NCBI RefSeq assembly: GCF_009707865.1
Contig: NZ_WMBA01000039.1
Span: forward strand, 1-64,000
Length of the DNA stretch: 64,000 nucleotides
Direction of reading: 5' to 3'
From: Amycolatopsis pithecellobii
GTDB taxonomy: Bacteria > Actinomycetota > Actinomycetes > Mycobacteriales > Pseudonocardiaceae
Shown: one piece after another, positions 13,614-54,990 of the stretch
How positions within the stretch are numbered: the first letter of the stretch is position 1
Layout of the letters: the number at the start of each line of letters is the position of its first letter
Translations under genes and position numbers: made by a program
Notes under the pieces: model-generated
The model's database searches: none
What the model was told of the DNA's origin: nothing
What the model saw: only the letters and a program-made list of their open reading frames with translations

Positions 13614-13670
13614 GAGTTGAGCTTTCGGTGCGGGTGAGTTGAGCTTTCCACGGCAGTGAGTTGCGCTTTC
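13614..13670 (+). repeat. 22-bp-period repeat array A, forward block (3 copies)
   Basis: Three copies of the core GAGTTG[A/C]GCTTTC at 13614, 13636 and 13658, exactly 22 bp apart. The first begins 15 nt after the stop of the phospholipase-like gene, in the same orientation as that gene. The sequences between the cores vary, so only about 13 bp of each 22-bp unit is strongly kept. See array A reverse block and arrays B-D for the same element. Confidence 0.9.
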
Positions 13671-13732
13671 CGTGCGTTGCGATGCCGGTCGGCGGCACAG
13701 GCACGAGATGGCCGCGATCACTGTGGCGTACT

Positions 13733-13811
13733 GAAGGCGCAACTCGCACGCATTGAACGCGCAACTCGCGTGCTTGGAACGCGCAACTCGCGTGCGCCGA
13801 GAGCGCAACTC
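13733..13811 (-). repeat. 22-bp-period repeat array A, reverse block (4 copies)
   Basis: Four inverted copies (core GAACGCGCAACTC and variants) at 13733, 13755, 13777 and 13799, again exactly 22 bp apart, pointing toward the forward block. A 62-bp unrelated spacer (13671-13732) separates the blocks. The array lies between two convergent genes and just outside the aconitase terminator hairpin. Confidence 0.9.
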
Positions 13812-13821
13812 GCGTAAATGG

Positions 13822-13857
13822 AAAGCGCCGCGGACCCAAGCGGGCCCGCGGCGCTTT
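13822..13857 (-). terminator. Terminator hairpin of the aconitase gene
   Basis: A perfect 12-bp stem, AAAGCGCCGCGG (13822-13833) / CCGCGGCGCTTT (13846-13857), lies 12 nt past the aconitase stop codon and has T/A tracts at both ends. It could terminate transcription from both convergent genes. Confidence 0.8.
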
Positions 13858-13868
13858 TCGCGGAGAAA

Positions 13869-16682
13869 TCAGGCGCGCGTCATCTTGCGCAGCACGTACT
13901 GCAGGATGCCGCCGTTGCGGTAGTAGTCCGCCTCACCGGGGGTGTCGATGCGCACGACCGCGTCGAACTCGACCTTGGCTCCGTCGTCCTTGGTCGCGGT
14001 GACGTGCACCGTGCGCGGGGTCTCACCGTTGTTCAGCTTGGTGATACCCGCGATGTCGAACGTCTCCGTGCCGTCCAGACCCAGCGACGAGGCCGACTCG
14101 CCCTCCGGGAACTGCAGCGGGATGACGCCCATGCCGATCAGGTTCGACCGGTGGATACGCTCGAACGACTCGGCGATCACCGCGCGCACGCCCAGCAGGC
14201 GGGTGCCCTTGGCGGCCCAGTCCCGCGACGACCCCGAGCCGTACTCCTTGCCGCCCAGCACCACCAGCGGGATACCGGCGTCGGCGTAGTTCTGCGCCGC
14301 GTCGTAGATGAACGCCTGCGGGGCGTCGTCCCGGGTGAAGTCCCGGGTGTAGCCGCCCTGCACATCGTCCAGCAACTGGTTGCGCAACCGGATGTTGGCG
14401 AACGTGCCGCGGATCATCACCTCGTGGTTCCCGCGCCGGGAGCCGTAGGAGTTGAAGTCCTTGCGCGCGATGCCGTGTTCCTTGAGGTACCGGCCGGCGG
14501 GCGAGTCCTCCTTGATCGCGCCCGCGGGCGAGATGTGGTCGGTCGTCACCGAGTCGCCCAGCTTCGCCAGCACACGCGCGTCGGCGATGTCCTCGACCGG
14601 CGACGGCTCCGCGGCCATGCCCTCGAAGTACGGGGGCTTGCGCACGTAGGTGGACTCGGCGTCCCAGGCGAACGTCTTGCCCTCCGGCGTCGGCAGCGAC
14701 TTCCAGCGCTCGCCACCGTCGAACACGTCCGCGTAGTCGTTGGCGAACATCTCCTGCGTGATCGCGTAGTCGATGGTCTGCTGGATCTCCTGCGCCGAGG
14801 GCCAGATGTCGCGCAGGAACACGTCGTTGCCGTCCTGGTCCTGCCCGAGTGGCTGCTCTTCGAAGTCGAAGTCCATCGTGCCGGCCAGCGCGTAGGCGAT
14901 CACCAGCGGGGGCGAGGCCAGGTAGTTCATCTTCACATCGGGGTTGATCCGGCCCTCGAAGTTCCGGTTACCCGACAGCACGGACACCACGGTGAGGTCG
15001 TTTTCCTGCACCGCGGCGGAGATCTCCTCGGGCAGCGGGCCCGAGTTGCCGATGCACGTGGTGCAGCCGTAACCGACGAGGTGGTAGCCCAGCTTCTCCA
15101 GGTACGGCCAGAGCCCGGCCTTCTCGTAGTAGTCGGTGACGACCTGCGAGCCCGGCGCCATCGACGTCTTCACCCACGGCTTGACCGACAGACCCTTGTC
15201 CACTGCGTTGCGGGCGAGCAGCGCCGCGCCCAGCATGACCGACGGGTTCGAAGTGTTGGTGCACGAGGTGATCGAGGCGATCACCACGGCACCGTGGTCG
15301 AGCACGAACTCGCCGCGCTCCGCGGACTTCACCGTGACCGGCTTGGTCGGGCGGCCCGACGAGCCGTTGGCCGCGCTGGGAACGGCAGCAGTGTCTTCCT
15401 CGTCGGCGAAGGACAGCGTCGCCGGGTCACTGGCCGGGAAGGTCTCCTCGACGGCCTCGTCGACGTTGGTGTGCGGGGTGCGCTGGTCGTCCTCGGCGTA
15501 GTCGTGCACCGACTTGCGGAACGAGGACTTCGCGTCGGACAGCTCGATGCGGTCCTGCGGGCGCTTCGGGCCGGCGATCGACGGAACCACAGTGGACAGA
15601 TCCAGCTCGAGGTACTCGGAGTAGGTGGCCTCGTGCGCCGGGTTGTGCCACAGGCCCTGTTCCTTGGCGTAGGCCTCGACGAGCGCGAGCTGCTCGGGGG
15701 AGCGGCCGGTCAGCTTCAGGTACCGCAGGGTCTCTTCGTCGATGGGGAAGATCGCCGCGGTGGAGCCGAATTCGGGGCTCATGTTGCCGATGGTGGCGCG
15801 GTTGGCCAGCGGCACCGCGCCGACGCTCTCGCCGTAGAACTCGACGAACTTGCCGACCACGCCGTGCCGGCGCAGCATCTCGGTGATCGTCAGCACCACG
15901 TCGGTCGCGGTCACGCCGGCCGGGATCTCCCCGGTCAGCTTGAAGCCGACGACGCGCGGGATGAGCATCGAGACCGGCTGGCCGAGCATCGCGGCCTCGG
16001 CCTCGATCCCGCCGACGCCCCAGCCGAGCACCCCGAGCCCGTTGACCATCGTGGTGTGCGAGTCGGTGCCGACGACGGTGTCCGGGTAGGCCTGGCCGTT
16101 GCGGGCCATGATCGTGCGCGCCAGGTACTCGATGTTGACCTGGTGCACGATGCCCGTGCCCGGCGGGACGACCTTGAACTCCTCGAACGCGTTCTGGCCC
16201 CAGCGCAGGAACTGGTAGCGCTCCCGGTTGCGCTCGTACTCGATCTCGACGTTGCGCTCGAACGCGTCGGCCCGGCCGAATACGTCGATGATCACGGAGT
16301 GGTCGATGACGAGTTCGGCCGGGGCGAGCGGGTTGACCTTGTCGGGGTCACCGCCGAGTTCGGTGACGGCCTCGCGCATCGTGGCGAGGTCCACCACGCA
16401 CGGCACACCGGTGAAGTCCTGCATCACCACCCTGGCCGGGGTGAACTGGATTTCGATCGACGGGTCGGCGGTGGCGTCCCAGTTGCCGAGCGCGCGGATG
16501 TGCTCGGCGGTGATGTTCGCGCCGTCCTCGGTGCGCAGCAGGTTCTCGAGCAGGATTTTCAGGCTGTAGGGCAGTCGCTGCGAACCCTCGACCTTGTTCA
16601 GGCGGAACACCTCGTAGGAGGCGTCACCGACCTTCAAGGTGTCGCGGGCGCCGAAGCTGTCCTTGCTGGCAGGTGCGGTCAC
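13869..16682 (-). CDS. acnA: Aconitate hydratase
   Basis: A 937-residue TCA-cycle [4Fe-4S] enzyme converting citrate to isocitrate. The first cluster Cys is in [12 protein letters not shown] and the other two in [15 protein letters not shown]; the swivel domain near the C-terminus has [15 protein letters not shown]. An acidic, low-complexity insert of about 50 residues (around 370-420, with [13 protein letters not shown]) is common in actinobacterial AcnA. The GTG start has GGAGAC upstream. A promoter with good -35/-10 spacing lies about 150 bp upstream. The neighbouring acn-ripA-moxR order matches M. tuberculosis. Confidence 0.97.
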
Positions 16683-16828
16683 GTCTGTCTCCAGGGCTCA
16701 GACGCCGCCGCGCGGTGTGGTGCCTTCGGCGGCGTCCCGGTCGTCAGTTCGGGTCTCCCAGGCGAGTCTGGCGCACCCGTACGGCGTCCGCAGACGCGGG
16801 GGGACGGCGCAGGCTCCCTGCAGGTCAA

Positions 16829-16857
16829 ACAGTACGCTTGTCCTTTTTTGCTGGCAA
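16829..16857 (-). promoter_or_regulatory. Aconitase promoter
   Basis: Reading the minus strand, TTGCCA (-35; 16852-16857) is followed after exactly 17 bp by TACTGT (-10; 16829-16834), a good SigA-type promoter. It overlaps an inverted repeat ACGCTTG (16834-16840) / CAAGCGT (16855-16861) that spans the -35/-10 spacer and could be an operator. The 5' leader to the GTG would be about 140 nt. Confidence 0.65.
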
Positions 16858-16890
16858 GCGTGACCCACGTGACCAGCTTCAGGCTCCCGC

Positions 16891-16925
16891 GAGTTGAGCG
16901 TTGGGAGCGCGCGAGTTGAGCGTTG
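16891..16925 (+). repeat. 22-bp-period repeat array B, forward block (2 copies)
   Basis: Two forward copies of GAGTTGAGCGTTG at 16891 and 16913, 22 bp apart, lying about 30 bp upstream of the aconitase -35 element. They run head-on into the reverse block, so the last forward and first reverse copies can fold into a GC-rich hairpin. Confidence 0.9.
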
Positions 16926-16935
16926 CGTGCGGCGG

Positions 16936-17014
16936 GAACGCGCAACTCGCGCGGCGGGAACGCGCAACTCGCGCGGCGGGAACGCGCAACTCGCGCGGCG
17001 GGAAAGGTCAACTC
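16936..17014 (-). repeat. 22-bp-period repeat array B, reverse block (4 copies)
   Basis: Four inverted copies at 16936, 16958, 16980 (all GAACGCGCAACTC) and 17002 (GAAAGGTCAACTC), exactly 22 bp apart. The block begins 8 nt after the stop of the minus-strand gene at 17023-18336 and is read in that gene's transcript as GAGTTG-type repeats. Confidence 0.9.
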
Positions 17015-17022
17015 GCGCGGCC

Positions 17023-18336
17023 CTAGTCGGCGAATTTCAGCAGAGTGGTGATGTCACCGGGCTGCAGCGACCGGAGCACGGTCATGCCCTGTTCGGTCAG
17101 GGTGCGGATGGGGCTGACGTAGTGCTTCTGGCCGGACTCGATGGTGACCACGCCGAGGCCCTGCGCGAGCAGCCCGTTCACCAGGTGCCGCAGCACCTCG
17201 CGGACCTCCGAGGGCAGCGAACCGGCCGCGTCGTCGAGCTGCTCGGTGAGGTCGTTCGCGCACATCCGCTGTGTCTCGTCCATGTAGGTGACCTCGTAGC
17301 AATCGCCCGACTTCTTCGCGCCGAGGCGCTCGCCTTTTTCGTTGCGCAGCTGCACGTTGGTGACCGTCACCCGCGTCCCGCCGGTGACCGCCGATGTCTC
17401 CGCGGCGAAGTCGGTGATCTGGACCTCCCCGGGTTCCGGTTTTCCTTGTGCCGCTTGAAGAATGGCCGGCCCCGCGTCGTGCAGGACGGACATTTCGGTG
17501 GGCGGGAGCAGTTCGATCACGCGCCGGGTGTCCTCATCCAGCGCCGCCTGCAGCACCTGCTTGACCGCCTCCTGCGGCGAGGACGCGCCGACATCCGGTA
17601 TCGAGGTCGACGGCCACGGCTTCCCGGCGTCCTTGAGCGCGTAGTCGGCGATCGTGTACATCAGACTCGGGTACCACCGGTCTTCGACCTCGACGGTGGC
17701 GATACGGACCGGCTCACCGGTCTTCCGGACCTCGTCGGCGATGTTGATCGTCTCGGTCTCGGTGCCCTGCGGGCGGGCGCTACCGGGCAGCGCCTCGTCG
17801 AGGAACTGCTTGGCCAGCGGCAGCTTGCCGAAGTCGCTGGTCACGGTGAGCGTGCCGCCGGTGAGCTTGGTGATCGTGAGGTGGTCGTTGACGCGCTCCG
17901 CGCCGGCCTCGTCGAACGTCAGATTCTGGCTGCTGACCTTGATGCCGCTCACCGCGTTCGGGTCCGCGCTCTGGTCGAGCACCTGCAACCGCTTGAGCTC
18001 GCTCGTCGCGTCCCGCAACGGGTCGGTGAACAGCGTGGCCTCCCACGGAACGAGGCTGTCCAGCACCCCGACGAGGTCACTGTTGCCGACGGAACTGGCC
18101 AGCTTCAGCGCGGCTTCGGTGGGCGTCTTCGCGCCGTCATCCTGACGCGCGACCAGGTACCAGGTCCCGCCGCCGCCGAGGGCGGCGACCAGCACGATCA
18201 CCAGGCCGATGAGCAGCCCGCGGCGGCGCTTACGCGGTGGCTGCGGCATCCCGTAACCCGGGGGATAGGGCGGCTGCGGCGGATAAGGCGGCTGCTGCGG
18301 CGGATAGGGCTGCCAGCCGGGACCGGGCGCGGTCAT
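17023..18336 (-). CDS. Membrane-anchored hypothetical protein with proline-rich cytoplasmic tail
   Basis: A 437-residue protein of unknown function. The start ATG at 18336 overlaps the stop of the next upstream gene (ATGA). Residues 1-35 are a Pro/Tyr/Gln-rich tail with PPYPPQ-type repeats, then a basic patch (PPRKRRRG) and one transmembrane helix (about 42-62). The remaining roughly 370 residues should be extracytoplasmic. They hold two similar-looking halves, and two Cys residues near the C-terminus (SGDCYEVTY, QRMCANDL) could form a disulfide. The layout resembles cell-envelope accessory proteins of actinobacteria. I do not recognise the family. Confidence 0.8.
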   Translation of the reverse strand: MTAPGPGWQPYPPQQPPYPPQPPYPPGYGMPQPPRKRRRGLLIGLVIVLVAALGGGGTWYLVARQDDGAKTPTEAALKLASSVGNSDLVGVLDSLVPWEATLFTDPLRDATSELKRLQVLDQSADPNAVSGIKVSSQNLTFDEAGAERVNDHLTITKLTGGTLTVTSDFGKLPLAKQFLDEALPGSARPQGTETETINIADEVRKTGEPVRIATVEVEDRWYPSLMYTIADYALKDAGKPWPSTSIPDVGASSPQEAVKQVLQAALDEDTRRVIELLPPTEMSVLHDAGPAILQAAQGKPEPGEVQITDFAAETSAVTGGTRVTVTNVQLRNEKGERLGAKKSGDCYEVTYMDETQRMCANDLTEQLDDAAGSLPSEVREVLRHLVNGLLAQGLGVVTIESGQKHYVSPIRTLTEQGMTVLRSLQPGDITTLLKFAD

Positions 18337-18785
18337 CGGTTTTCCCCAGTTCTCATGGTCGGGCGGCTGCGCACGGCGAACGTGCCGAGCGCACCGGCCA
18401 GCGCGACGATCGCGCCGGACAAGGTCGTGACGGGACCGGTCGTGGTGATCCCCGTGGTCCCGCCGCCACTTCGGACGGTGGCCAGTAGGGCAACGGTTCC
18501 CACGGATATCGCGAGCAGCGTGGTGAGCGCCGCGGCGGTGCGCGCGAAGCCGAGCGCGAACAAGCCAAGGCACACCGCGCTCGCCAGCGGGATCGCGACC
18601 CAGATCCGCAGCGCCCCGTCGGCGATGGTGTTGCCGAGGAGGCCGAACCGCCCGGCCAGAGCGGCGGCTTGGTAGCTGTGCCGCTCGACGGTGCCGGAGT
18701 GGAACCACGGCAGGAAGGTGCCCAGCACCGTGATGGCCACCCCTGTCGCCGCGGCCCACGGCGGTATCCGGCGAAAACCGGTCAT
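18333..18785 (-). CDS. Four-helix hypothetical membrane protein
   Basis: A 150-residue protein with about four hydrophobic segments (around 12-30, 50-72, 78-100 and 112-135) and no recognised domain. The ATG at 18785 is chosen because the minus strand carries GAAAGGAG 8 nt upstream. It overlaps the downstream 437-residue gene by 4 nt, so the two form a coupled pair that may make one membrane complex. The pair is divergent from the NlpC/P60 hydrolase gene. Confidence 0.75.
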   Translation of the reverse strand: MTGFRRIPPWAAATGVAITVLGTFLPWFHSGTVERHSYQAAALAGRFGLLGNTIADGALRIWVAIPLASAVCLGLFALGFARTAAALTTLLAISVGTVALLATVRSGGGTTGITTTGPVTTLSGAIVALAGALGTFAVRSRPTMRTGENR

Positions 18786-18841
18786 GGTCAGGCTCCTTTC
18801 GCATTTCCGGACCTGAGACGCCGGATGCGGTGAAAAGGGTC

Positions 18842-18853
18842 CCCCGTACGGGG
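18842..18853. promoter_or_regulatory. Palindrome in divergent promoter region
   Basis: A perfect 12-bp palindrome CCCCGTACGGGG lies in the 163-bp region between the divergent membrane-protein gene (start 18785) and the NlpC/P60 gene (start 18949). About 30 bp on, GTGATACG occurs twice with a 9-bp period (18883 and 18892). Both are candidate regulator sites; neither is assigned to a known factor. Confidence 0.4.
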
Positions 18854-18948
18854 AGATGTTGCGCGAGAGGGTGAAGTTCCTGGTGATACGTGTGATACGC
18901 CTGTGGCTCGAGTGTGGGGAGTTGTGTCCCGAGCCGGAGGGGGAACGC

Positions 18949-20283
18949 GTGCCGAACACGACGCGTCAGCGCTGGTCCAGCAGGGCGGCCGCCGGTGTCC
19001 TGGCCTTGGTCGCGGCCTTCGGCGTCGCCGGCACGGCGGCCGCGGTACCGCCCCCGCCGCCCAACCCCAGTGACAACGAGATCAACTCCAGCCGGGCGCA
19101 GGCCGACGCGAAAGCAGGCGAGGTCGGGCAGCTGACCAACCAGCTCGCCGAGGCCGAGTCCCGCCTCGCCGACTTGCAGGACCAGGTCGAGTTGAAGATG
19201 GAGCGGGCCAACAAGGCGCTGGTGGACCAGCAGGCCGCCGAGGACGCGGCCACCCAGGCACAGGCCGATGCCGCGGCCGCGCGCCGCGAGTCCGACGCCG
19301 CCGCCCAGCAGATCGAGGTCGCACGCCGGCAGCTCGACGGGTTCATCGCGGGCAGCTACCAGCAGGGCAGCACGATGGGCTCGATCTCGGCCTACCTCGG
19401 CTCGAACAGCCCGAAGGACCTGCTGGCCCGCGCGCAGCTGCTGTCCTCGGTCAGTGGGAGCCAGCTCAACGGGCTCGAGCTGATGGAGCAGGCGCAGACG
19501 GACAAGTCCAACAAGGACGCCGCCGCCCGCGCCGCCCTCGAGATCGCCCAGCAGAAGCAGGCCGCCGCCGAGGCCGCCAAGCACACCGCCGACGCCGCGC
19601 AGGCCGCCGCGGTGCAGGCCCAGCAGGGGCAGGCCGCACAGGCAGCGGCACTGGAGGCGAACAAGAACTCCGTCGAGCAGGAGCTTTACACCGCGCAGCA
19701 GCGCGTCGCGGGTCTGCAGGGGCAGCGCCAGCGGTACCAGGACTGGCTCGCGCAGAAACAGCGTGAGGACGAGGAGCGAGCACGCCAGGCCGCGCTCGCC
19801 GCGAGCAAGGGCAGTGCCGGCGGCGGAGGTGGCGGGGTCGTCCGGCCGGTCACCGGCGTTTCGGGATCGATCGTGGAGCGGGCCATCGCGCGGGCGATGG
19901 CGCAGCTGGGCATGCCGTACGCGTGGGGCGGAGGCAACGCCAGCGGCCCGACGCTCGGGATCCGGGACGGCGGGGTCGCCGACGCCTACGGGGACTACCG
20001 CAAGATCGGGTTCGACTGCTCGGGGCTGATGATCTACGCCTATGGCGGCGCTGTCTCGCTGCCGCATTACAGCGGCTACCAGTACACGGCCGGACGCCAG
20101 GTCCCGCTGTCCCAGATGCGCCGAGGTGATCTGCTCTTCTGGGGGCGCTGGGACATCCACCACGTGGCCCTGTACCTGGGCAACGGGATGATGATCGAGG
20201 CGCCGCAGTCCGGCATGGTGGTGCGGGTGACCCCGGTGCGCTACGGCGACATCCTGCCGTATGCGGTCCGCCTCGCCGGATAG
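18949..20283 (+). CDS. Secreted NlpC/P60 peptidoglycan endopeptidase (RipA-like)
   Basis: A 444-residue cell-wall hydrolase. The GTG start follows GGAGGGGG. A signal peptide (about 1-36, ending GTAAAVPPPPP) leads into a long alanine/glutamine-rich coiled coil (about 45-300). A Gly linker is followed by an NlpC/P60 domain (about 325-444) with catalytic Cys in FDCSGLMIYAY and His in DIHHVALYLG. It is expected to cut the stem peptide during cell separation, with the coiled coil as regulator. It sits where M. tuberculosis carries ripA/ripB next to moxR1, but here there is only one copy. Confidence 0.92.
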   Translation: MPNTTRQRWSSRAAAGVLALVAAFGVAGTAAAVPPPPPNPSDNEINSSRAQADAKAGEVGQLTNQLAEAESRLADLQDQVELKMERANKALVDQQAAEDAATQAQADAAAARRESDAAAQQIEVARRQLDGFIAGSYQQGSTMGSISAYLGSNSPKDLLARAQLLSSVSGSQLNGLELMEQAQTDKSNKDAAARAALEIAQQKQAAAEAAKHTADAAQAAAVQAQQGQAAQAAALEANKNSVEQELYTAQQRVAGLQGQRQRYQDWLAQKQREDEERARQAALAASKGSAGGGGGGVVRPVTGVSGSIVERAIARAMAQLGMPYAWGGGNASGPTLGIRDGGVADAYGDYRKIGFDCSGLMIYAYGGAVSLPHYSGYQYTAGRQVPLSQMRRGDLLFWGRWDIHHVALYLGNGMMIEAPQSGMVVRVTPVRYGDILPYAVRLAG

Positions 20284-20292
20284 CCTGGACCG
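20281..20292 (+). promoter_or_regulatory. -10 element for leaderless mobA transcript
   Basis: TAGCCT at 20281-20286 is followed by 6 nt and then the ATG of mobA. No Shine-Dalgarno sequence is present. This matches the known actinobacterial arrangement in which transcription starts at the start codon. The TAG of the hexamer is also the stop codon of the preceding gene. Confidence 0.6.
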
Positions 20293-20838
20293 ATGAGTTT
20301 CGCGGGCATCGTGCTCGCCGGAGGTGCCGCACGCCGACTGTCCGGTGTGGACAAACCGATGCTCGAGTTCGGCGGGAAACCGTTGCTGCGCCACGCGATC
20401 GACGCGCTCGCGGGCGCGGACCCGATCGTGGTCGCGGGGCCGAGGCGGCCCGGGGTGGATGGCGTGCGCTGGGTGCGGGAGGACCCGCCCGGCTCCGGAC
20501 CGGTGGCCGCGCTGGCGGCGGGGCTCGCGGTCGTGCCCGATCACGGGCCGGTGGCGGTGCTCGCCGGTGACCTCGTCGCGATCCGCCGGTCCACAGTGGA
20601 CAGACTGAGGGCGGCGCTGGGGAACGCCGGCGGCGCGGTCCTCGTCGACGCCGGTGGCCGCAGGCAGTGGCTCATCGGGGTGTGGCGGACGGCGGAACTG
20701 CGTGCGGTGCTACCCGCCGAGGCGTCGGATGTCCCGCTGTGGAAGGTGTTCGGCGCGCTCGACCCGGTGGAGGTGCCGGAGCTGCCGGGGGAGAGCGCGG
20801 ACATCGACACACCCGAAGATCGACTACGGCATTCGTGA
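20293..20838 (+). CDS. mobA: MobA, molybdenum cofactor guanylyltransferase
   Basis: A 181-residue nucleotidyltransferase that adds GMP to molybdopterin to make the MGD cofactor. The N-terminal signature is complete: [26 protein letters not shown], split by the usual Gly-rich loop and Lys. [11 protein letters not shown] replaces the more usual CDxP motif, with Asp kept. The gene is short but normal for actinobacterial MobA. No other molybdopterin genes are in the window, so it is an isolated copy between the cell-wall hydrolase and moxR. Confidence 0.87.
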
Positions 20839-20920
20839 AGCTCACAGCCCTCATACCGGCCGTGGAGTTGACTCGCGCTACGGTCGCACACGGAAAGCGA
20901 ACGTGATCGAGGAGGCAACC

Positions 20921-28212: not shown

Positions 28213-29610
28213 GTGAACCCCGTACCCGAACACCTGCCCCGCACCGCGGGACAGCTGCGCGCGGCCGGTTACGCCCCGCGCGGGCTCAAGACGGAAATCC
28301 ACGACAACCTGCTCACGGCGCTGCGCGAGGGCCGGAACCCGTGGCCGGGCATCGTCGGGTTCGACCGCACGGTTTTGCCCCAGTTCGAGCGCGCGCTGCT
28401 GGCCGGCCACGACGTCGTACTGCTCGGCGAGCGCGGTCAGGGCAAGACGAGGCTGCTGCGCACGCTGGCCGGGCTGCTCGACGAGTGGACACCGGTGATC
28501 GAGGGCAGTGAGCTGGCCGAGCACCCGCTCGACCCGATCACCCCGGCGTCGATCCGCCGTGCCGCCGAGCTCGGCGACAACCTGCCCGTGACGTGGCGGC
28601 ACCGCAGTGAGCGCTACACCGAGAAGCTGGCCACCCCGGACACGAGCGTCGGTGACCTGATCGGCGACGTCGACCCGGTCAAGGTCGCCGAGGGCCGCAG
28701 CCTCGGCGATCCCGAAACCATCCACTTTGGACTCGTGCCCCGGGCGCACCGGGGCATTGTTGCGATCAACGAGCTTCCCGACCTTGCCGAACGCATCCAG
28801 GTCGCGCTGCTGAACGTGATGGAGGAGCGCGACATCCAGGTCCGCGGCTACACGCTGCGCCTGCCACTGGACGTGCTCATGGTCGCCACCGCGAACCCCG
28901 AGGACTACACCAACCGCGGCCGGATCATCACCCCGCTCAAGGACCGGTTCGGCGCGGAGATCCGCACCCACTATCCGCTGGACGTCGCCGCCGAGGTGGA
29001 GGTGGTGCGCCAGGAGGCGCATCTCGTCGCCGAGGTGGGCGAGCCGCTGCTGGAGGTGCTCGCTCGGTTCGTCCGGAATCTGCGCGAGTCCACCGTGATC
29101 GACCAGCGCTCGGGCGTGTCGGCCCGGTTCGCCGTGGCGGCGGCCGAAACCGTTGCGGCGGCGGCATTGCGGCGTTCGGCACTGACCGGCGAGCACCCCG
29201 CGGTCGCGCGCCCGGTCGATCTCGACGCGGTGCCGGCGGTGCTGCGCGGCAAGATCGAGTTCGAGCCGGGCGAGGAGGGTCGCGAGCACGAGCAGCTCGT
29301 GCACCTGCTGCGCCGCGCGATCGCCGAGACCGCGCGGGACCGATTCGGCGGGCTGAACCTGCGGCCACTGGTGGAAGCGGTCGCGGACGGGCATCTGGTG
29401 GCCACCGGCGAGAAGGTGCCGGGCGCCGATGTGCTCGCCGCCTTGCCGGAACTGCCGATCCTGCACGAAGTGGCGGCGCGGGCGGGCGTGTCCGCCGGTG
29501 ATGCGCCGGGCCGGATCGCCGCGGCCGTCGAGCTGGCGCTGGAGTCGCTGTACCTGGCGCGGCAGCTGGCCAAGGACTCCGACGACGCGACCACGGTGTA
29601 CGGGCCGTGA
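28213..29610 (+). CDS. MoxR/magnesium-chelatase-type AAA+ ATPase (Rv0958-like)
   Basis: A 465-residue AAA+ ATPase with Walker A VVLLGERGQGKTR (about 75-87) and Walker B/sensor region GIVAINELPDLAERIQVALLN, then VLMVATANPEDYTNRG. It is related to the ChlI subunit of magnesium chelatase, but no chlorophyll or cobalamin chelatase genes are near. M. tuberculosis Rv0958 next to VWA protein Rv0959 is the likely counterpart. Together with the gene at 29645 it forms a second, independent MoxR-VWA type chaperone module in this window. Confidence 0.88.
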   Translation: MNPVPEHLPRTAGQLRAAGYAPRGLKTEIHDNLLTALREGRNPWPGIVGFDRTVLPQFERALLAGHDVVLLGERGQGKTRLLRTLAGLLDEWTPVIEGSELAEHPLDPITPASIRRAAELGDNLPVTWRHRSERYTEKLATPDTSVGDLIGDVDPVKVAEGRSLGDPETIHFGLVPRAHRGIVAINELPDLAERIQVALLNVMEERDIQVRGYTLRLPLDVLMVATANPEDYTNRGRIITPLKDRFGAEIRTHYPLDVAAEVEVVRQEAHLVAEVGEPLLEVLARFVRNLRESTVIDQRSGVSARFAVAAAETVAAAALRRSALTGEHPAVARPVDLDAVPAVLRGKIEFEPGEEGREHEQLVHLLRRAIAETARDRFGGLNLRPLVEAVADGHLVATGEKVPGADVLAALPELPILHEVAARAGVSAGDAPGRIAAAVELALESLYLARQLAKDSDDATTVYGP

Positions 29611-29644
29611 CACCGCCGACGTACTTTCCCCCGCGGAGGCGGCG

Positions 29645-31600
29645 ATGACACAGCCGGAAAGCTACAACTACGGGCCGTGGCATGACGGGCCGGACCCGCT
29701 CGCCCCGCCGATCGATCTGCGTGACGCGCTCGACGAGATCGGGCAGGACGTGATGGGCGGGTCCTCACCTCGCTCGGCGCTGGAGGAGCTGCTGCGCCGC
29801 GGCACGCGGGACACGGCAGGTCTCGACGAGCTCACGCGCCGGGTGTGGCAGCGGCGAGCGGAGATCCAGCGCCGCAACAACCTCGACGGCACACTGCAGG
29901 AGGTCCAGCGGCTGTTGAACGAGGCGCTGACCGAGGAACGCCGCACGCTGTTCCCCGACCCGTCGGACGAGGCCCGCTTCGCCGAGGCCGAGCTCGACGC
30001 GCTGCCGCCGGGCACGGCCGCCGCGGTGCGCGAGCTGGCGGACTACCAGTGGCGTTCCGAGCAGGCCCGGGAGAATTACGAGCAGATCCAGGACCTGCTG
30101 GGCCGCGAAATGCTCGAATCGCGCTTCGAGGGCATGAAGGAGGCGCTGCAGAACACAAGCCCCGAAGACGTCGAGCGGGTCAACCAGATGCTCGGCGATC
30201 TCAACGAGCTGCTGGACGCGCATGCCCGCGGCGCCGACGACGTCGAGGAGCGGTTCGAGGAGTTCATGCGCCGCCACGGCGAGTTCTTCCCGGAGAACCC
30301 GCAGAACGTCGAGGAGCTGATCGACGCGCTCGCGGCGCGTGCCGCGGCGGCGCAGCGGATGTTGAACTCGATGAGCGAGGAGCAGCGCGCGGAGCTGGCT
30401 TCACTTGCGCAGCAGGCGTTCGGTGACCCGCGCATCGCGCAGCAACTGTCCAATTTGGATGCTCAGTTGCGGTCGTTGCGGCCGGGGGAGGACTGGACGT
30501 CTTCGGCGCGGATGCGGGGGCGCAACCCACTGGGCATGGGCGAGGGCGCGCAGGCCATGCAGGATCTCGCCGAGCTCGACGCGCTCGCGGAGCAGCTGGG
30601 GCAGTCCTATCCGGGTGCGCGCCTGGAGGACATCGACCTGGACGCGCTGGAACAGCAGCTGGGCAAGGATTCCGGCGTCGACGCGCGCCGGTTGTCCGAG
30701 CTGGAGCGGGAATTGCGCCGCCAGGGCCTGTTCGAGCGTGCGCCCGACGGGTCGCTTCGGTTGTCTCCCAAGGCTTTGCGGCGGCTCGGTGAGACGGCGC
30801 TCGCCGACGTGGTGAACGCGTTGCGCGGCAAGACCGGGCAGCGCGAGCAGGAGTCGGCGGGCGCGGCCGGTGAGCCCACCGGGGCGAGCAGGCCGTGGCA
30901 GTTCGGTGACATGCAGCCGTGGGACACCTCCCGCACGGTGCGCAACGCGGTGCTGCGCACGGCTTCGGTCGGCGGCGGCGCGGTGAAGCTCGATGTGTCC
31001 GATGTGGAGGTCGTGGAGACCGAGCACCGGTCACGTGCCGCGGTGGCGTTGCTGGTGGACACGTCGTGGTCGATGGTCGCCGAGGGCCGGTGGCTGCCGA
31101 TGAAGCGGACGGCACTGGCGCTGCACCAGCTGATCTCCACCCGGTTCCGCAACGATGCGCTGCAGCTGATCACGTTCGGCCGCTACGCCGCTTCGGTGGA
31201 GCTGGAAGAGCTGGTGGGCCTGGAAGGCGCATGGGAGCAGGGCACGAATGCGCACCATGCGCTGCTGCTGGCGGGCCGGCACCTGCGGCGGCATCCCGAC
31301 GCGCAGCCGGTGGTGCTGATGGTGACCGACGGCGAGCCGACCGCGCACCTGGAACCCGACGGTGAAGCCATTTTCGACTACCCGCCGCGGCCGGAGACGC
31401 TGTACCGGACAGTGTCCGAAGTGGACAGACTGGCGAAGCTGGGTGCAGCGGTGACGGTGTTCCGCCTCGGTGACGACCCGCGCCTGGAGGAGTTCGTCGA
31501 TCTGCTGGCGCGGCGCGCCGGTGGCCGCGTCGTCGCGCCCGACCTCGACGGTCTCGGCGCGGCCGTCGTCGGTGACTACCTCCGCACCCGCCGGCGCTAG
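29645..31600 (+). CDS. VWA-domain protein, partner of the adjacent AAA+ ATPase (Rv0959-like)
   Basis: A 651-residue soluble protein. The N-terminal two-thirds (about 1-440) is acidic, Glu/Leu/Arg-rich and mostly helical. The C-terminal part (about 445-645) is a VWA domain with the metal motif LLVDTSWSMVAEG (DxSxS) and VVLMVTDGEPTAH. The ATG at 29645 is chosen over longer in-frame extensions because it follows GCGGAGG and lies just past the previous stop. VWA partners present clients to MoxR-type ATPases. A 22-bp-period repeat block begins 5 nt after its stop codon. Confidence 0.88.
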   Translation: MTQPESYNYGPWHDGPDPLAPPIDLRDALDEIGQDVMGGSSPRSALEELLRRGTRDTAGLDELTRRVWQRRAEIQRRNNLDGTLQEVQRLLNEALTEERRTLFPDPSDEARFAEAELDALPPGTAAAVRELADYQWRSEQARENYEQIQDLLGREMLESRFEGMKEALQNTSPEDVERVNQMLGDLNELLDAHARGADDVEERFEEFMRRHGEFFPENPQNVEELIDALAARAAAAQRMLNSMSEEQRAELASLAQQAFGDPRIAQQLSNLDAQLRSLRPGEDWTSSARMRGRNPLGMGEGAQAMQDLAELDALAEQLGQSYPGARLEDIDLDALEQQLGKDSGVDARRLSELERELRRQGLFERAPDGSLRLSPKALRRLGETALADVVNALRGKTGQREQESAGAAGEPTGASRPWQFGDMQPWDTSRTVRNAVLRTASVGGGAVKLDVSDVEVVETEHRSRAAVALLVDTSWSMVAEGRWLPMKRTALALHQLISTRFRNDALQLITFGRYAASVELEELVGLEGAWEQGTNAHHALLLAGRHLRRHPDAQPVVLMVTDGEPTAHLEPDGEAIFDYPPRPETLYRTVSEVDRLAKLGAAVTVFRLGDDPRLEEFVDLLARRAGGRVVAPDLDGLGAAVVGDYLRTRRR

Positions 31601-31605: not shown

Positions 31606-31662
31606 GAGTTGAGCGTTGGGTGCGCGCGAGTTGAGCTTTCCGGTCGCGCGAGTTGCGCGTTC
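31606..31662 (+). repeat. 22-bp-period repeat array C (3 forward copies)
   Basis: Copies of GAGTTG[A/C]GC[G/T]TT at 31606, 31628 and 31650, exactly 22 bp apart, starting 5 nt after the TAG stop of the VWA gene and in the same orientation. There is no inverted block here, and the next gene reads in the same direction. Confidence 0.9.
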
Positions 31663-46095: not shown

Positions 46096-46097
46096 CG

Positions 46098-46979: not shown

Positions 46980-47074
46980 GCCCCGCACTCTATGGGAGGG
47001 GTACGACAATTCCGTCCCATCCCGCTACCGGGTGTCGATCACGTGCCGTCACGGCGGTCCCACACCGCCGCCTC

Positions 47075-47086
47075 TACGCTGACCTT
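47075..47086 (+). promoter_or_regulatory. -10 element for leaderless site-2 protease gene
   Basis: TACGCT at 47075-47080, 6 nt, then GTG at 47087. No Shine-Dalgarno sequence is visible. Confidence 0.55.
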
Positions 47087-48241: not shown

Positions 48242-48279
48242 ACCACGTCACCGGCTGCTCTGCGAGGATCGGGCGCTGC

Positions 48280-49223
<944 letters not shown>

Positions 49224-49242
49224 GACCGCCCGGGAAACCGGG

Positions 49243-50007: not shown

Positions 50008-50538
50008 CGGACGGTGCCCCCTCGCTCGGGCGGGACCGGTGCCGTGCTCGGGTGCGATCCGGCTTCAGGATTCATCGATGCACCACTCGGGCCCCTGCTG
50101 CTTCCTCGGGATGGTCATGTTGTGTCGTCCCGTCATAGGTCGGTCTACGACGGATTTCGCCGTGTGGCGCTCCGGCGTGATCGTAACGTCGCGTCCGGCA
50201 GCGCTCCCGACCAGCTTCTCGCGCGGCGGCCCGCGCCCGTTTTTCCCTTGGTTTGAACGAAATCCGCCGGGGAAATCGTTATATGAAGGTCCTGTAAAGC
50301 CTTGATGGGGTGGTCGTGACATGGGTGAATCGCAGACAGCCCGGTCGGCCGCACTCCGTGGTTCAGGTTTTACGGAGAGTAGTTCAGGGCGCCGTCGACC
50401 GTGCACCGTGACGGCCGCTTGTGCAGCGCGTGGGAACGTGTATCCGGTGCGACGCGCCGATCCTGTGATGCGGATAGACCTTTTCTTGTCGGTGATCGCC
50501 GGTACCGTGGATGAAAAGCACTCCGAGGAGGTGCCGAC
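50008..50538. other. 531-bp gene-free region between divergent genes, with arc promoter candidate
   Basis: No convincing gene is seen; the open frames here lack ribosome sites and overlap neighbours. A near-palindrome CGTCATAG/CTACGACG lies around 50132-50153, close to the start of the minus-strand gene. A TACCGT hexamer (50503-50508) about 30 nt upstream of the arc ATG could be its -10; a good -35 is not evident. Directly before arc is GAGGAGG (50525-50531), so arc is translated from a leadered mRNA. The length is unusual for this gene-dense window. Confidence 0.45.
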
Positions 50539-52359
50539 ATGCAACACGACCTTCCCGGAGGTCGGCATGAAGAAGCCGACCCTTCAGAGACGACTGGAGC
50601 AGCAACGACGCCGGACGAGTACGCGCGGCAGATGCGTTTCCTCGAGGAGGAAGTCGCGCTGCTGCGCAGGAAGCTGACCGATTCACCCCGCCAGAACCGG
50701 GTGCTGGAACAACGCCTCGCCGAGGCCTCAGAGCGTGTGGCCCAGCTCACCGAGCGGAACAGCAAACTGGTCGAGACCTTGCGCGAGGCGCGTGGGCAGT
50801 TGCTCGCGCTGCGCGAGGAGGTCGACCGGCTTGCCCAGCCGCCCAGCGGTTATGGCGTCTTCGTCGAGGCCTATGAGGACAGCACGGTCGATGTTTTCAC
50901 CGCGGGCCGCAAGATGCGGGTTTCCGTGTCCCCGGCGGTGGAGATCGACTCGCTGCAGCGCGGCCAGGCGCTGCGGCTGAACGAGGCCCTCACCGTCGTG
51001 GAAGGTGGTGATTTCGAGCGTACCGGTGAGGTGTGCGCGCTCCGCGAGGTGCTCGCCCCCGAGGTGGAAAACGGCCCGCATCGCGCACTCGTCGTCGGTC
51101 ACGCCGACGAGGAACGCGTGGTGTGGCTGTCCGGTCCGCTGGCCGCGCAGCCGCTCAAGCCGGGTGATTCGCTGCTGGTGGACTCGAAGGCGGGCTACGC
51201 CTACGAGCGGGTGCCCAAGGCCGAGGTCGAGGATCTCGTGCTCGAAGAGGTCCCCGATGTTCGCTACGAGGACATCGGCGGGCTCGGCAGGCAGATCGAG
51301 CAGATCCGCGACGCGGTCGAACTGCCGTTCCTGCACGCCGATCTCTACCGTGAGTACGAGTTGCGGCCGCCCAAGGGGGTCCTGCTCTACGGCCCGCCCG
51401 GCTGCGGGAAGACGCTGATCGCCAAGGCGGTGGCCAACTCGCTGGCCAAGAAGGTCGCCGAGGCGCGGGGAGATGCGGATGGCGCGACTGGTCATATCGA
51501 GGCCAAGTCGTACTTCCTCAACATCAAGGGCCCCGAGCTGCTGAACAAGTTCGTCGGTGAGACCGAGCGGAGCATCCGCCTGATCTTCCAGCGGGCACGG
51601 GAAAAGGCCTCGGGTGGCACCCCGGTCATCGTCTTCTTCGACGAGATGGAGTCGATCTTCCGGACCCGTGGCAGCGGGGTCTCCTCCGACGTGGAGACCA
51701 CGATCGTGCCGCAGCTGCTGGCGGAGATCGACGGTGTCGAGGGGCTCGAGAACGTCATCGTGATCGGTGCCTCCAACCGGGAGGACATGATCGACCCGGC
51801 GATCCTGCGGCCCGGCCGGCTGGACGTGAAGATCAAGATCGAACGGCCGGACGCCGAGGGTGCGAAGGACATCTTCTCCAAGTACCTGACGTCCGGGCTG
51901 CCGATCCACGCCGACGATCTCGCCGAGTTCGGCGGCGACGTGCCGGCCACGATCGACGCGATGATCCAGCACACGGTCGAGCGGATGTACGAGGAGACCG
52001 ACGAGAACCGGTTCCTCGAGGTCACCTATGCCAACGGGGACAAGGAGATCCTTTACTTCCGTGACTTCAACTCGGGCGCGATGATCCAGAACATCGTGGA
52101 CCGGGCGAAGAAGTCGGCGATCAAGTCGGTGCTGGAGACCAAGCAGCCGGGTCTGCGGGTGCAGCACCTGCTCGACGCGATCGTGGACGAGTTCGCGGAG
52201 AACGAGGACCTGCCGAACACGACGAACCCGGACGACTGGGCCCGGATCTCCGGCAAGAAGGGCGAGCGGATCGTCTACATCCGCACGCTCGTCACCGGCA
52301 AGAACCAGGACTCCGGCCGCGTGATCGACACCGCGACCAACACCGGTCAGTACCTGTAA
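50539..52359 (+). CDS. arc: ARC/Mpa, proteasome-associated AAA+ unfoldase
   Basis: A 606-residue hexameric ATPase that recognises pupylated proteins and threads them into the PrcAB proteasome. In order: N-terminal coiled coil for Pup binding (about 28-97, Leu/Glu-rich), two OB-fold domains (about 100-245), and the AAA module with Walker A GPPGCGKT (285-292) and Walker [10 protein letters not shown] (about 363-371). The C-terminus TGQYL is the docking motif that opens the 20S gate. The ATG has GAGGAGG 7 nt upstream. A terminator follows 10 nt after the stop. Confidence 0.97.
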
Positions 52360-52369
52360 GAAGAGCGCG

Positions 52370-52405
52370 AACGAGGGCCATCGGAAACTCCGGTGGCCCT
52401 CGTTT
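52370..52405 (+). terminator. Terminator of arc
   Basis: An 11-bp stem, AACGAGGGCCA (52370-52380) / TGGCCCTCGTT (52394-52404), ends in TTT. It is 10 nt past the arc stop and would separate arc from the inserted genes downstream. Confidence 0.75.
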
Positions 52406-52428
52406 GCATGTCCTGCCGCCCGTTGGCT

Positions 52429-52453
52429 GTATAACGCCCTATACTTCGGCTCC
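52429..52453 (+). promoter_or_regulatory. Promoter/operator of the 112-residue gene
   Basis: GTATA (52429-52433) and TATAC (52440-52444) form an inverted repeat with a 6-bp centre, overlapping a TATACT hexamer (52440-52445) placed 8 nt before the GTG. A related GTATAAC recurs at the end of the gene (52787-52793). It could be a site for autoregulation by the small HTH-like product. Confidence 0.45.
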
Positions 52454-52792
52454 GTGAGCGAGCCCTTTCGTCCCCGTGCCCCCATCACCGCCGCGGATGT
52501 GCTGTCGTGGCTGGAAGAAACCGCGGTCGCCGTCCGCGCGGGCGAGGTGAGCGCGGACGACCTGATCGCCGTCCTCGGCGAGTTACGGCGCGCCTCGGCG
52601 GCCTGCGCGGACGCCTCCGACTGGGCGCTGCTGGCCGCACGTGAGGAGGGGGCCAGCCTCCGGCAGATCGCGCCCGTGTTCGGCAAGGGCTACGTACGGG
52701 CGCCTGCGGCGCGGCTGGAGAAGCTGCACCGGCAGGCGCTCAGTTCAGCGCAGTGGCTGGAAATACTCCGGCAGCGCGCCGACGGTGTATAA
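52454..52792 (+). CDS. Small HTH-like hypothetical protein
   Basis: A 112-residue all-helical protein. The C-terminal half (EEGASLRQIAPVFGKGYVRAPAARLEKLHR) looks like a helix-turn-helix followed by a basic helix, so DNA binding is plausible. There is no known family name I can give. It lies between arc and the rest of the Pup genes, after the arc terminator, with its own promoter and an overlapping inverted repeat. Confidence 0.7.
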   Translation: MSEPFRPRAPITAADVLSWLEETAVAVRAGEVSADDLIAVLGELRRASAACADASDWALLAAREEGASLRQIAPVFGKGYVRAPAARLEKLHRQALSSAQWLEILRQRADGV

Positions 52793-52859
52793 CAATCTCG
52801 GGGCGGCATGGAATCCGTGATGTCCAGCCGGTGCCGGACGCGGACGAAAGGGGAGGCCC

Positions 52860-53786
52860 CTGCGTATCGGACTCGGCCTAGCCGCCTTGGGCAGGCCGGC
52901 CTACATCAACCTGGGCAGGGTGGACGAACTTCCCGCCAAGCGGGACGTCGACACGATGCGGCGGGCGACCCATGCTGTGCTCGACGCGGCATATCAGGCC
53001 GGGGTTCGCTGGTTCGACGTCGCGCGCTCGTACGGCCGCGCCGAGGAGTTCCTGGCCGGGTGGCTGCGCCTGCGCAAACCCGCGGACGTCACGGTGTCCA
53101 GCAAATGGGGCTACACCTACGTCGGCGGCTGGCGGCTGGACGCGGCGATGCACGAGGTCAAGGAGCATTCGGCGAGCAGCTTTTCCCGCCAGTGGACCGA
53201 AAGCCGCGCGCAGCTGGGTTCCGCGATCAACCTGTACCAGGTGCACTCGCTGACCATGGACAGCCCGCTGTTCAGCGACGAGCCGTTGCTGAGAGCGCTT
53301 TCCGCGCTCGATGACGACGGGGTGCGCGTCGGTTTCTCCACGTCGGGTCCGGGACAGGGCGACGTGATCCGCCGCGCCTTCGCACTGCGGGTCGCAGGAA
53401 AACCGATCTTCACCGCGGTGCAGTCCACCTGGAACGTGCTGGAGCCCTCGGCCGGGCGCGCGCTCGCCGAGGCACACGCGGCCGGAAACCTGGTACTGGT
53501 CAAGGAAACTCTGGCCAACGGCAGGCTGGTGGTATCGCCGCCACCGGTGCTGTCCCGGATCGCGGCGCGGCACGGCGTGGGCCCGGATGCGATCGCGGTC
53601 GCGGCGGTGCTGGCCCGGCCGTGGGCGTCGACAGTGCTCGTCGGCCCGGCCAGCCCGGCGCAGCTGGCCGCCAACCTCGCCGCCACCAGGGTGAATCTCG
53701 CCGACGGCGAACTGCGCGCGCTGGCGTCGCTGGCCGAGCCGCCCCGGGAGTACTGGGGACGGAGATCCTCTTTGCACTGGCGGTAA
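52860..53786 (+). CDS. Aldo/keto reductase, probably starting at CTG
   Basis: A 308-residue NADPH-dependent aldo/keto reductase. The catalytic Tyr is in WFDVARSYGRAEEFLAGWL, Lys in TVSSKWGYTYVGG and His in INLYQVHSLT. An in-frame TTG at 52887 would drop the first beta strand (LRIGLGLAALGRP), which the family always has. A CTG at 52860 restores it and has GGGGAGG about 4-5 nt upstream, so I prefer this rare start. It sits inside the proteasome locus without an obvious functional link. The C-terminus (PPREYWGRR) is typical. Confidence 0.85.
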   Translation: MRIGLGLAALGRPAYINLGRVDELPAKRDVDTMRRATHAVLDAAYQAGVRWFDVARSYGRAEEFLAGWLRLRKPADVTVSSKWGYTYVGGWRLDAAMHEVKEHSASSFSRQWTESRAQLGSAINLYQVHSLTMDSPLFSDEPLLRALSALDDDGVRVGFSTSGPGQGDVIRRAFALRVAGKPIFTAVQSTWNVLEPSAGRALAEAHAAGNLVLVKETLANGRLVVSPPPVLSRIAARHGVGPDAIAVAAVLARPWASTVLVGPASPAQLAANLAATRVNLADGELRALASLAEPPREYWGRRSSLHWR

Positions 53787-53833
53787 AGGCTTCGGCTAGT
53801 CTCGGCGCCCCGGCAACTGGAAGGAACGACTCG

Positions 53834-54457
53834 GTGCGTCACGGACGGGTAGTGGTCCTGAGCGCGGTGCTGCTGGCCGGACTCGCCGGTTGCGCCGACC
53901 GGCCCAACGATCTCGAGACTTACTACGACAGCCCGGGTCACTCGGCCACGCCACCGAGCGCGCCGCCGTCGGCTTCGGCGACCGCCCCGGATCCGGCGGT
54001 CACGGCGACGAGGAACGCGCAGCGGGCCATCGCCGGTGAGGTCGCCGCCGCCGTGCTCACCAAGGACGATCTCGCGAGCGAAGGGGTGCGGGCCACGAGC
54101 CAGCGCCCGGAGAACGGCGACTGCTTCCACGCGGTGCCCGCCGGTGATCCCCGCGGGTCGAGCTGGACCTACCCGAGTGGTTCCTCATTCGTCCAGCAGG
54201 TCACCGGTTACCTCGACCAGACCGCGGTGGACGTCCTGAACCGGGTCCAGTGCGACGGCCAGAAACTGACGGTGCCACTGCCGCCGGGCGCCGAGGCGGT
54301 GCGTGGCTGGTGCGCCGGCGGCACCTGCACCGTGCTGCTCGCGGCCGGGCACGTGCTGTCCGGCCTGCAGGTCACCGCGACGTCGGCCGGCCGCGCCACC
54401 GATGCGATCAAAAGCCTCACCCCGCTCGCGGCGCGCAAACTCCCGGCTCAGCCATGA
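53834..54457 (+). CDS. Putative lipoprotein
   Basis: A 207-residue exported protein. The signal peptide ends in a lipobox LAGLAGC with Cys at about residue 20, so it should be a diacylated lipoprotein on the outer face of the membrane. A Ser/Pro/Ala linker (about 30-55) leads to a domain with four Cys residues (GDCFHAV, RVQCDGQ, GWCAGGTC), probably two disulfides. It resembles the sensor-domain-containing lipoproteins of actinobacteria. Its last 10 nt overlap the convergent NUDIX gene. Confidence 0.82.
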   Translation: MRHGRVVVLSAVLLAGLAGCADRPNDLETYYDSPGHSATPPSAPPSASATAPDPAVTATRNAQRAIAGEVAAAVLTKDDLASEGVRATSQRPENGDCFHAVPAGDPRGSSWTYPSGSSFVQQVTGYLDQTAVDVLNRVQCDGQKLTVPLPPGAEAVRGWCAGGTCTVLLAAGHVLSGLQVTATSAGRATDAIKSLTPLAARKLPAQP

Positions 54458-54870
54458 CGACGGAACCACTCCAGGATTCCGGCGCGCCCATCGGGAATCA
54501 TCGGGCTGTCCGGGCCCTCGGCCCATTCCCGTAGTTCGGCGAGCGTGATCCAACGGCCGTCGACGATCTCTTCGGCCTGATGAACAATCGGCCTGTCCCA
54601 GCGAGCCTCGAACGTGAAGTTGTGGCACCGGTACGGCGGCTTCTCGAAGACATGCGTGAACACCGGCGTCAGTTCCACGCCGTACACGCCCAGTTCCTCG
54701 TCCAGCTCCCGGAAAGCGCATTCAGCCGGTGTCTCCCCGGCCGCGACCACCCCGCCCGCCCAGCAGTCCCACAGACCAGGGAACACGTCCTTGTCCGGTG
54801 ACCGGCGGTGCAGGTGCCGCGCGAGTTGCGCGTTCCCGGTGCGCGAGTTGCGCGTTCCCGCCGCACGCAA
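54448..54870 (-). CDS. NUDIX hydrolase with 5' end replaced by repeats (probably truncated)
   Basis: The C-terminal 120 or so residues are a good NUDIX hydrolase: PDKDVFPGLWDCWAGG, and an intact Nudix box GVVAAGETPAECAFRELDEE followed by LGV. The family normally has some 50 more residues with a substrate strand before HRRSPDKD. Here the frame runs straight into repeat array D, where the only start is a TTG inside the repeats; the first 17 residues (e.g. GTRNSRTGNAQLAR) are repeat-coded. I regard it as a 5'-truncated gene, likely non-functional, though a short active form cannot be excluded. Confidence 0.65.
   Translation of the reverse strand: MRAAGTRNSRTGNAQLARHLHRRSPDKDVFPGLWDCWAGGVVAAGETPAECAFRELDEELGVYGVELTPVFTHVFEKPPYRCHNFTFEARWDRPIVHQAEEIVDGRWITLAELREWAEGPDSPMIPDGRAGILEWFRRHG
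54823..54857 (+). repeat. 22-bp-period repeat array D, forward block (2 copies)
   Basis: Two forward copies GAGTTGCGCGTTC at 54823 and 54845, 22 bp apart, lying at the broken 5' end of the NUDIX gene. They face the longer reverse block. Confidence 0.9.
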
Positions 54871-54990
54871 CGCTCAACTCGCGCGCTCCCAACGCTCAAC
54901 TCGCGCGCTCCCAACGCTCAACTCGCGCGCTCCCAACGCTCAACTCGCGCGCTCCCAACGCTCAACTCGCGCGCTCCGAACGCTCAACTC
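54868..54990 (-). repeat. 22-bp-period repeat array D, reverse block (6 copies)
   Basis: Six inverted copies with the core CAACGCTCAACTC at 54868, 54890, 54912, 54934 and 54956, and a variant (GAACGCTCAACTC) at 54978. The first five 22-bp units are virtually identical over their full length, unlike arrays A-C, which points to recent tandem amplification. The block ends about 85 bp upstream of dop. Confidence 0.92.

Follow-up and report, generated by a model that had tools for sequence, protein, structure and literature searches.

Repeated DNA between Genes of an Amycolatopsis Contig

A 64,000-nt stretch of Amycolatopsis pithecellobii (positions 1 to 64,000 of contig NZ_WMBA01000039.1, our C77, in a 7.9-Mb draft genome; hereafter the window) carries four intergenic arrays, A to D, of a short, strictly spaced repeat, which raises the question of what makes such arrays and whether a gene goes with them. 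A reading made from the sequence alone had noted 24 copies of the core GAGTTG[A/C]GC[G/T]TT at a 22-bp step (forward plus reverse copies: A 3+4, B 2+4, C 3, D 2+6), with the blocks of A, B and D pointing towards each other. All 24 were confirmed in place, Tandem Repeats Finder reported period-22 arrays at 4/4 sites, and the coordinates put a forward block before a reverse block in A, B and D, with linkers of 8–10 bp between cores. Allowing up to two mismatches, the core occurs 30 times in the window, 24 of these inside the arrays, whilst shuffled sequences averaged 14.0 and 0/100 reached 30.

The sequence-only reading noted no transposase, cas or RAYT-type gene nearby and no match to REP, BIME, CRISPR or parS, and its interpretation is partly supported: no mobilising gene lies near the arrays in the window, but copies are dispersed through the genome and a candidate partner gene, with these repeats on either side, stands elsewhere in it. 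We consider it likely that the window arrays represent scattered copies, lacking the gene, of an element composed of a forward array, a DUF559 gene and a reverse array, which would work in the manner of a REPtron but with an unrelated enzyme.

One asymmetric element at many sites

Exact neighbouring core pairs at 22 bp number 143 in the A. pithecellobii genome, and the reversed pattern 0. The earlier reading had named two outcomes that would speak against it, genome-wide copies lacking the 22-bp period and a core no more common than composition predicts; as the period holds genome-wide and the core exceeds shuffles, neither occurs. In 1.07 Mb of the genome (~13%, partly chosen around arrays), neighbours spaced 13–60 bp apart fall at 22 bp (n = 221) or 44 bp (n = 16) in 237 of 243 cases, the other six lying off the step, and in Umezawaea beigongshangensis the spacing is 22 bp in 97/97. 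Neighbours with linkers at most half identical are spaced at 22 or 44 bp in 37 of 44 cases, a figure which is not proof of selection on spacing because off-step cases themselves lower linker identity. The unit consensus is CGAGTTGngCGTTccgngcGCG, with a conserved core and variable linkers, which together with the strict step fits sequence-specific recognition. The earlier reading had proposed a protein binding in register or a tandem process with a fixed unit; the step is not 22 bp everywhere, being 21 or 22 bp in relatives according to the locus.

Forty array sites in 0.83 Mb of the genome comprise 30 with a forward followed by a reverse block, 10 with a single block and none in the opposite order. 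At 26 of the 30 facing sites, exactly 12 bp separate one core from the other (gaps in Umezawaea are variable), and when these 26 centres are set against the 38-bp centre of element B or its reverse complement, all 26 lie within 8 letters, 25 within 6 and five are identical; their 12-nt loops show a median difference of 1 letter, against ~7 expected of random GC-rich loops. Fourteen centres lie one way and 12 the other. These 26 are therefore copies of one asymmetric element and not independent repeats; its ends are inverted copies of the repeat unit and its arms run from 2 to 10 or more units. An all-against-all comparison of the flanks of these facing sites found no homology except in one pair over 20 nt. 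Near-identity is frequent among the units of one array, showing that duplication occurs locally.

A scan of named contigs for the exact 22-bp pair, in which records of the A. pithecellobii genome may be left out, returned 39 stretches: 35 from U. beigongshangensis, two from A. acididurans and two from a Pseudonocardiales metagenome-assembled genome (MAG). Umezawaea blocks (loci L031–L069, e.g. L039:2404-2459 and L049:4721-4776) have three units in 36 of 52 cases, the third often being the variant GAG(T/G)(G/T)GAGCGTTCGCG, as if the inner end of the block were defined. Elsewhere, the junction of facing blocks is a near-perfect palindrome such as GAGTCCTTCACTC-GT-GAGTGAAGGACTC (L148:10319-10480 in G158; L149:6186-6369 and 17418-17556 in G159).

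A DUF559 nuclease gene between facing arrays

On contig C93 of the A. pithecellobii genome, facing arrays 1.0 kb apart enclose a single gene, whose 299-aa product scores above the Pfam cut-off with DUF559 and, with the MTES_1575 nuclease profile, below cut-off. Its N-terminal part matches AbiEi (PADLOC), and its C-terminal domain is placed by prediction in the EDxHD/Vsr-type nuclease fold (in the structure listing, families absent from the VIA list are not excluded). Residues E198, D231, E242, D244 and H249, which we take to be catalytic, are invariant in 30 sequences and supply the conserved acidic and histidine positions. The product is thus predicted to join an AbiEi-like DNA-binding domain to an EDxHD/Vsr-type nuclease domain.

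The Pseudonocardiales MAG likewise has arrays around a homologue of this gene. Across 390 genomes of the family, a search in which at most six first-look candidates were scored in most genomes returned 269 matches at E 1e-15 or better. At the best 30 homologous loci, tandem repeats of period 21 or 22 stand at 30/30, and none of period 19, 20, 23, 24 or 25; arrays lie on both sides of the gene at 26 and on one side at four (L279, L281, L284, L299), the borders of minus-strand genes being approximate. Thirty loci of more distant homologues, used as a control, showed facing arrays once (L324), plus low-complexity repeats of many periods, and the aconitase loci of 18 genus members showed facing arrays twice (G009 and A. 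acididurans). Between the arrays, the A. pithecellobii, MAG and main-locus examples looked at showed a single gene, no AbiEii search being made, and on plasmids the DUF559 protein had no match at E 1e-20. By position and by occurrence, the DUF559 gene is the candidate partner of the arrays. At L327:630-1100 (G063), repeats of ~28 bp (GTCGCCGAGTGCCGGGTTCTTGGCGGCGTT-like) adjoin a DUF559-type gene of a different family.

Gene and arrays occur together

A looser core, CGAGTY-N5-TT at 22 bp, matched 73 of the 390 family genomes, with 0 reversed-control matches among the genomes listed; beyond the family it matched 0/244 genomes of the order, and 2/298 genomes overall, both within the family. The core varies by species whilst the frame is kept, and with a step of 21 or 22 bp allowed, 155/390 genomes match, the reversed control giving 14 matches in three genomes. 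Eleven of these are in G163, where they exceed the two forward-pattern matches, perhaps marking another repeat family. Several genomes that were empty or nearly so by the first pattern (G317, G318, G319, G032, G058, G005, G393 and G394) turned out to have many 21-bp arrays, which the presence of the gene had led us to expect.

The gene (E 1e-40) and arrays (at least one pair) occur together in 147 of the 390 genomes, the gene alone in 34, arrays alone in 8 and neither in 201 (Fisher p 3.8e-62, kinship not corrected), and all 46 genomes with at least 30 pairs carry the gene. Stratifying by genus, a coarse correction for kinship, leaves arrays in 128/149 gene-positive vs. 6/133 gene-negative genomes of 15 mixed genera (Cochran–Mantel–Haenszel p 3.5e-38). 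In the best single contrast, genus g8, one of 24 genomes has the gene and arrays are found only in that genome. Dispersed cores agree with the core at their own gene locus in 5.83 of 8 letters and with those of other genomes in 4.46 of 8 (0/10000 permutations), the own core ranking first in 7/15, in a test that used parts of the lists. An initial result, that eight gene-less genomes of the genus were array-free, applies to the first pattern only; by the wider pattern three have 4–17 pairs.

Fourteen homologues (L300–L313) have the M20-peptidase gene of the main group as their neighbour. For 13 of them the match stops by residue 196, short of the nuclease, and the C-terminus of L300 lacks the motif. 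Their 14 genomes have 0 array pairs, and 0/88 genomes whose best homologue falls between 1e-15 and 1e-40 have three or more pairs. The persistence of the AbiEi-like half at the same locus in several genera suggests that it has a function of its own. Short-period repeats also adjoin nuclease-less homologues (L301:1238-1398, L303:265-530 and 1249-1442; G422, G030).

Outside the family, G097, from another family of the order, has a homologue (in the class 36% or less identical, its motif unmatched by the search expression) with facing 21-bp arrays of an unrelated core, ATCCGTCACSTATGTC; both arrays begin just past the stop codons of the neighbouring genes, and the units recur in 2/2 other 20-kb stretches of the same contig.

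Turnover of copies in the window

Comparison with relatives indicates that copies appear and disappear. At site B the array is missing from relative G006, where only a short gene end is found, and at site C both G006 and A. acididurans share the stop codon, followed by other sequence and no array. At site D both keep intact the first ~45 codons of a NUDIX-type gene which are lost in A. pithecellobii; array D has replaced the start of the gene, a gain accompanied by loss of host sequence. The NUDIX name is presumed from the sequence pattern, a Pfam search of the 178-aa open reading frame of the remnant giving no match. At site A, an array with a different core occupies the corresponding position past the aconitase terminator in A. 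acididurans, and this may reflect shared descent or a repeated hit. This putative terminator, a strong hairpin with a T run (13812-13868) between the aconitase stop and the reverse block of array A, is also present in A. acididurans.

Table 1 Arrays, element centres and gene remnant in the window.
Feature	Position	Strand	Context
Array A, forward block, 3 units of 22 bp	13614..13669	+	15 nt past stop of phosphoesterase gene (11973-13598 +)
Array A, reverse block, 4 units	13734..13811	-	57 nt from stop of aconitase (13869-16682 -)
Array B, forward block, 2 units	16891..16924	+	
Array B, reverse block, 4 units	16937..17014	-	8 nt from stop of 17023-20544 (-) gene
Element B centre, 38 bp, asymmetric, near-palindromic	16912..16949		Reference for the centre comparison
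Array C, 3 forward units	31606..31661	+	5 nt past stop of VWA-domain gene (29429-31600 +)
Array D, forward block, 2 units	54823..54856	+	
Array D, reverse block, 6 units	54869..54990	-	
Element D centre, 38 bp	54844..54881		Exact reverse complement of element B centre
NUDIX-type gene remnant	54185..54816	-	N-terminal part replaced by array D

Relation to known systems

Two papers (PMC3116915, PMC8266576) describe REPtrons, the REP/REPIN repeats with their RAYT (TnpA-REP) transposase, in which a gene, mostly in single copy, lies next to its repeats, with gene-less extragenic copies and vertical inheritance of the gene. The DUF559 system is alike in all of these, with many gene-less extragenic copies, and also in the inverted doublets with a fixed spacer of the A. 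pithecellobii genome; it differs in its enzyme, AbiEi plus EDxHD/Vsr nuclease in place of an HUH Y1 enzyme, and in its repeats, which are arms of same-direction 21/22-bp units. The title of PMC3733652 names a GTAG or CGTC tag at the palindrome end of REPs, and neither was found in the A. pithecellobii unit consensus.

Unlike EDxHD/Vsr-like homing endonucleases (I-Bth0305I), the gene is free-standing between arrays with no intron or intein seen, an AbiEi-like domain replaces the known DNA-binding parts, and hundreds of dispersed repeats are present. The AbiEi-like DNA-binding domain is shared with AbiE type IV toxin-antitoxin systems but, unlike in AbiEi antitoxins, is fused to a nuclease. The ends of transposon Tn7 carry reiterated sites for its transposase TnsB; here, in contrast, no TnsB-like gene was seen between the arrays and no target-site duplication was seen by eye. 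Linkers of 8–10 bp are too short for CRISPR, no cas search being made. To our knowledge, wherever dispersed bacterial repeats have had a known partner enzyme, these have been REP elements with HUH RAYT enzymes. Here an unrelated nuclease accompanies repeats that number in the hundreds in each genome. Neither enzyme nor repeat belongs to the known REP/RAYT pair, and the way of working of the DUF559 system may prove analogous to that of a REPtron. The open-access literature searched gave nothing tying DUF559 or MTES_1575 genes to dispersed repeats; with subscription papers and outside preprints beyond this scope, an earlier description is possible.

How the arrays might spread

Enzyme and repeats are probably a little-known mobile or domesticated genetic system. 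We infer DNA binding, cleavage and a copying step: the protein would recognise the repeated core in register every 21 or 22 bp and cut DNA at the array, repair or strand transfer would set new array copies, mainly between genes, copies abutting stop codons would survive best, and arms would lengthen via tandem duplication. Evenly balanced, in our view, is the broader proposition of a RAYT-independent class of self-spreading repeats, in which an EDxHD homing-type nuclease with an AbiEi-like domain spreads its in-register 21/22-bp arrays into gene ends; it includes an array about one nuclease footprint long, a core specificity that shifts between species along with the enzyme, an end to spread when the nuclease domain is lost, and a reach beyond one family with an unrelated core. 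If true, DUF559, a large and mostly unassigned family, would gain a function; there would be a second way for a repeat and its enzyme to become a domesticated pair; the intergenic arrays of antibiotic-producing actinomycetes would have an account of their origin; and a natural series (21/22 bp, many cores, with or without nuclease) would be at hand for direct tests of recognition and spread.

Several points weigh against spread by the DUF559 gene. Target-site duplications were not seen by eye at the 30 facing sites, no script test being made. The gene itself is largely inherited in place: neighbours are common to 23/30 loci, so it rarely moves. Thirty-four genomes have the gene and no pattern match, some of them because the pattern misses their core (e.g. 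G015, with arrays at its gene locus), and eight have pattern matches without the gene, three with 4–17 pairs; the homologue search behind these counts scored at most six first-look candidates per genome. The closest case in another family, L324, lacks the EDG..H motif by the search expression used, and dispersal alone does not account for the tight placement 3–10 nt past stops.

Placement and alternative explanations

The enrichment 3′ of genes that the sequence-only reading proposed to check is present. With genes called by a simple custom caller and much of the sample chosen around arrays, stop-facing ends lie within 10 nt of the stop in 33/65 cases in A. pithecellobii vs. 22.5 expected at random in free space (standard deviation 2.7), and in 30/52 vs. 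19.2 in Umezawaea (standard deviation 2.2), whilst start-facing ends lie within 10 nt of a start in 0/31 and 0/20. Sites in A. pithecellobii are 19 convergent, 27 tandem and 2 divergent, intergenic gaps of at least 60 bp in the same DNA numbering 59, 282 and 129, respectively. Promoter avoidance is expected for any insertion, and the close fit to stops has only a partial explanation.

This fit to stops, with the conserved core, variable linkers and AbiEi-like N-terminal domain, would also suit an AbiEi-type regulator whose arrays are operators, terminators or roadblocks kept by selection, the nuclease being accessory. We regard such a regulatory or architectural role as unlikely: array D took away a gene start, the B and C arrays are absent in G006 and the C array in A. 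acididurans, homologues with the AbiEi-like part and no nuclease motif go with zero arrays, and single-block arrays fold no better than shuffled sequence (0.1, n = 5; 0.0, n = 13). For a reading as RNA terminators or 3′ untranslated structures, the folding of facing arrays in A. pithecellobii is somewhat better than that of mononucleotide shuffles (median -5.0 kcal/mol, n = 22), and in Umezawaea it does not surpass that of array-free convergent ends (-8.4 vs. -9.4), so that we rejected this reading.

The earlier claim that blocks lie near stops and are read in the sense direction is borne out only by the two blocks of A, the reverse block of B and array C; it fails for the forward block of B, since the left neighbour is the aconitase start, 208 nt away. 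Array D lies between divergent genes. Single blocks in tandem gene pairs gave sense:antisense ratios of 3:1 in A. pithecellobii, 8:7 in Umezawaea, 8:0 in G174 and 0:1 in G159, and as these are mixed a general sense rule is unsupported. At six Umezawaea loci (L039, L042, L062, L064, L065, L069) the first core (GAGT-TGA) contains the upstream gene's stop codon, and three A-type units at 22 bp give TGA in all three frames.

Less probable again is a homing nuclease that settled in older arrays, as some insertion sequences do in REPs, the arrays then being targets and not products. The gene between facing arrays, as if their centre had been opened, the predicted homing-endonuclease fold and the common neighbours at 23/30 loci would agree with it; yet it expects arrays to be common without the gene, where 6/133 was seen in mixed genera, and 0/88 genomes with weak matches only have three or more pairs. 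Plain tandem slippage, or terminator-like simple repeats with no dedicated enzyme, would explain the near-identical units within arrays as local duplication, but we find it very improbable given the same core at unrelated sites (one 20-nt flank pair only) and the tie of arrays to one gene. An origin as REP/BIME elements mobilised by a RAYT, a Y1 tyrosine transposase, with which dispersed extragenic inverted doublets of fixed spacer would agree, can practically be dismissed, as Y1_Tnp (PF01797) has no match in the A. pithecellobii genome and matches in 2/20 array-rich and 0/20 array-poor genomes, in a search of 40 genomes whose controls gave a signal in 5/14.

Other candidates and observations

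Reverse transcriptase as the driver was rejected for the A. pithecellobii genome, in which it had no match, with 9/20 array-rich vs. 12/20 array-poor genomes positive; the label array-poor comes from the first pattern, and the wider one gives some matches in 9/20 (G009 18, G014 36, G017 17, G002 11, G011 4, G022 2, and G154, G167 and G168 one each). A phage origin was set aside, as 24 viral-contig matches included none with a block of three or more units. In G169 (L150:1578-9808), 8 kb lie between two inverted array regions whose inner flanks match; as an autonomous element this region was rejected, its genes being of outer-wall type (discoidin/pectate-type) and protease-like with no mobilisation gene among them.

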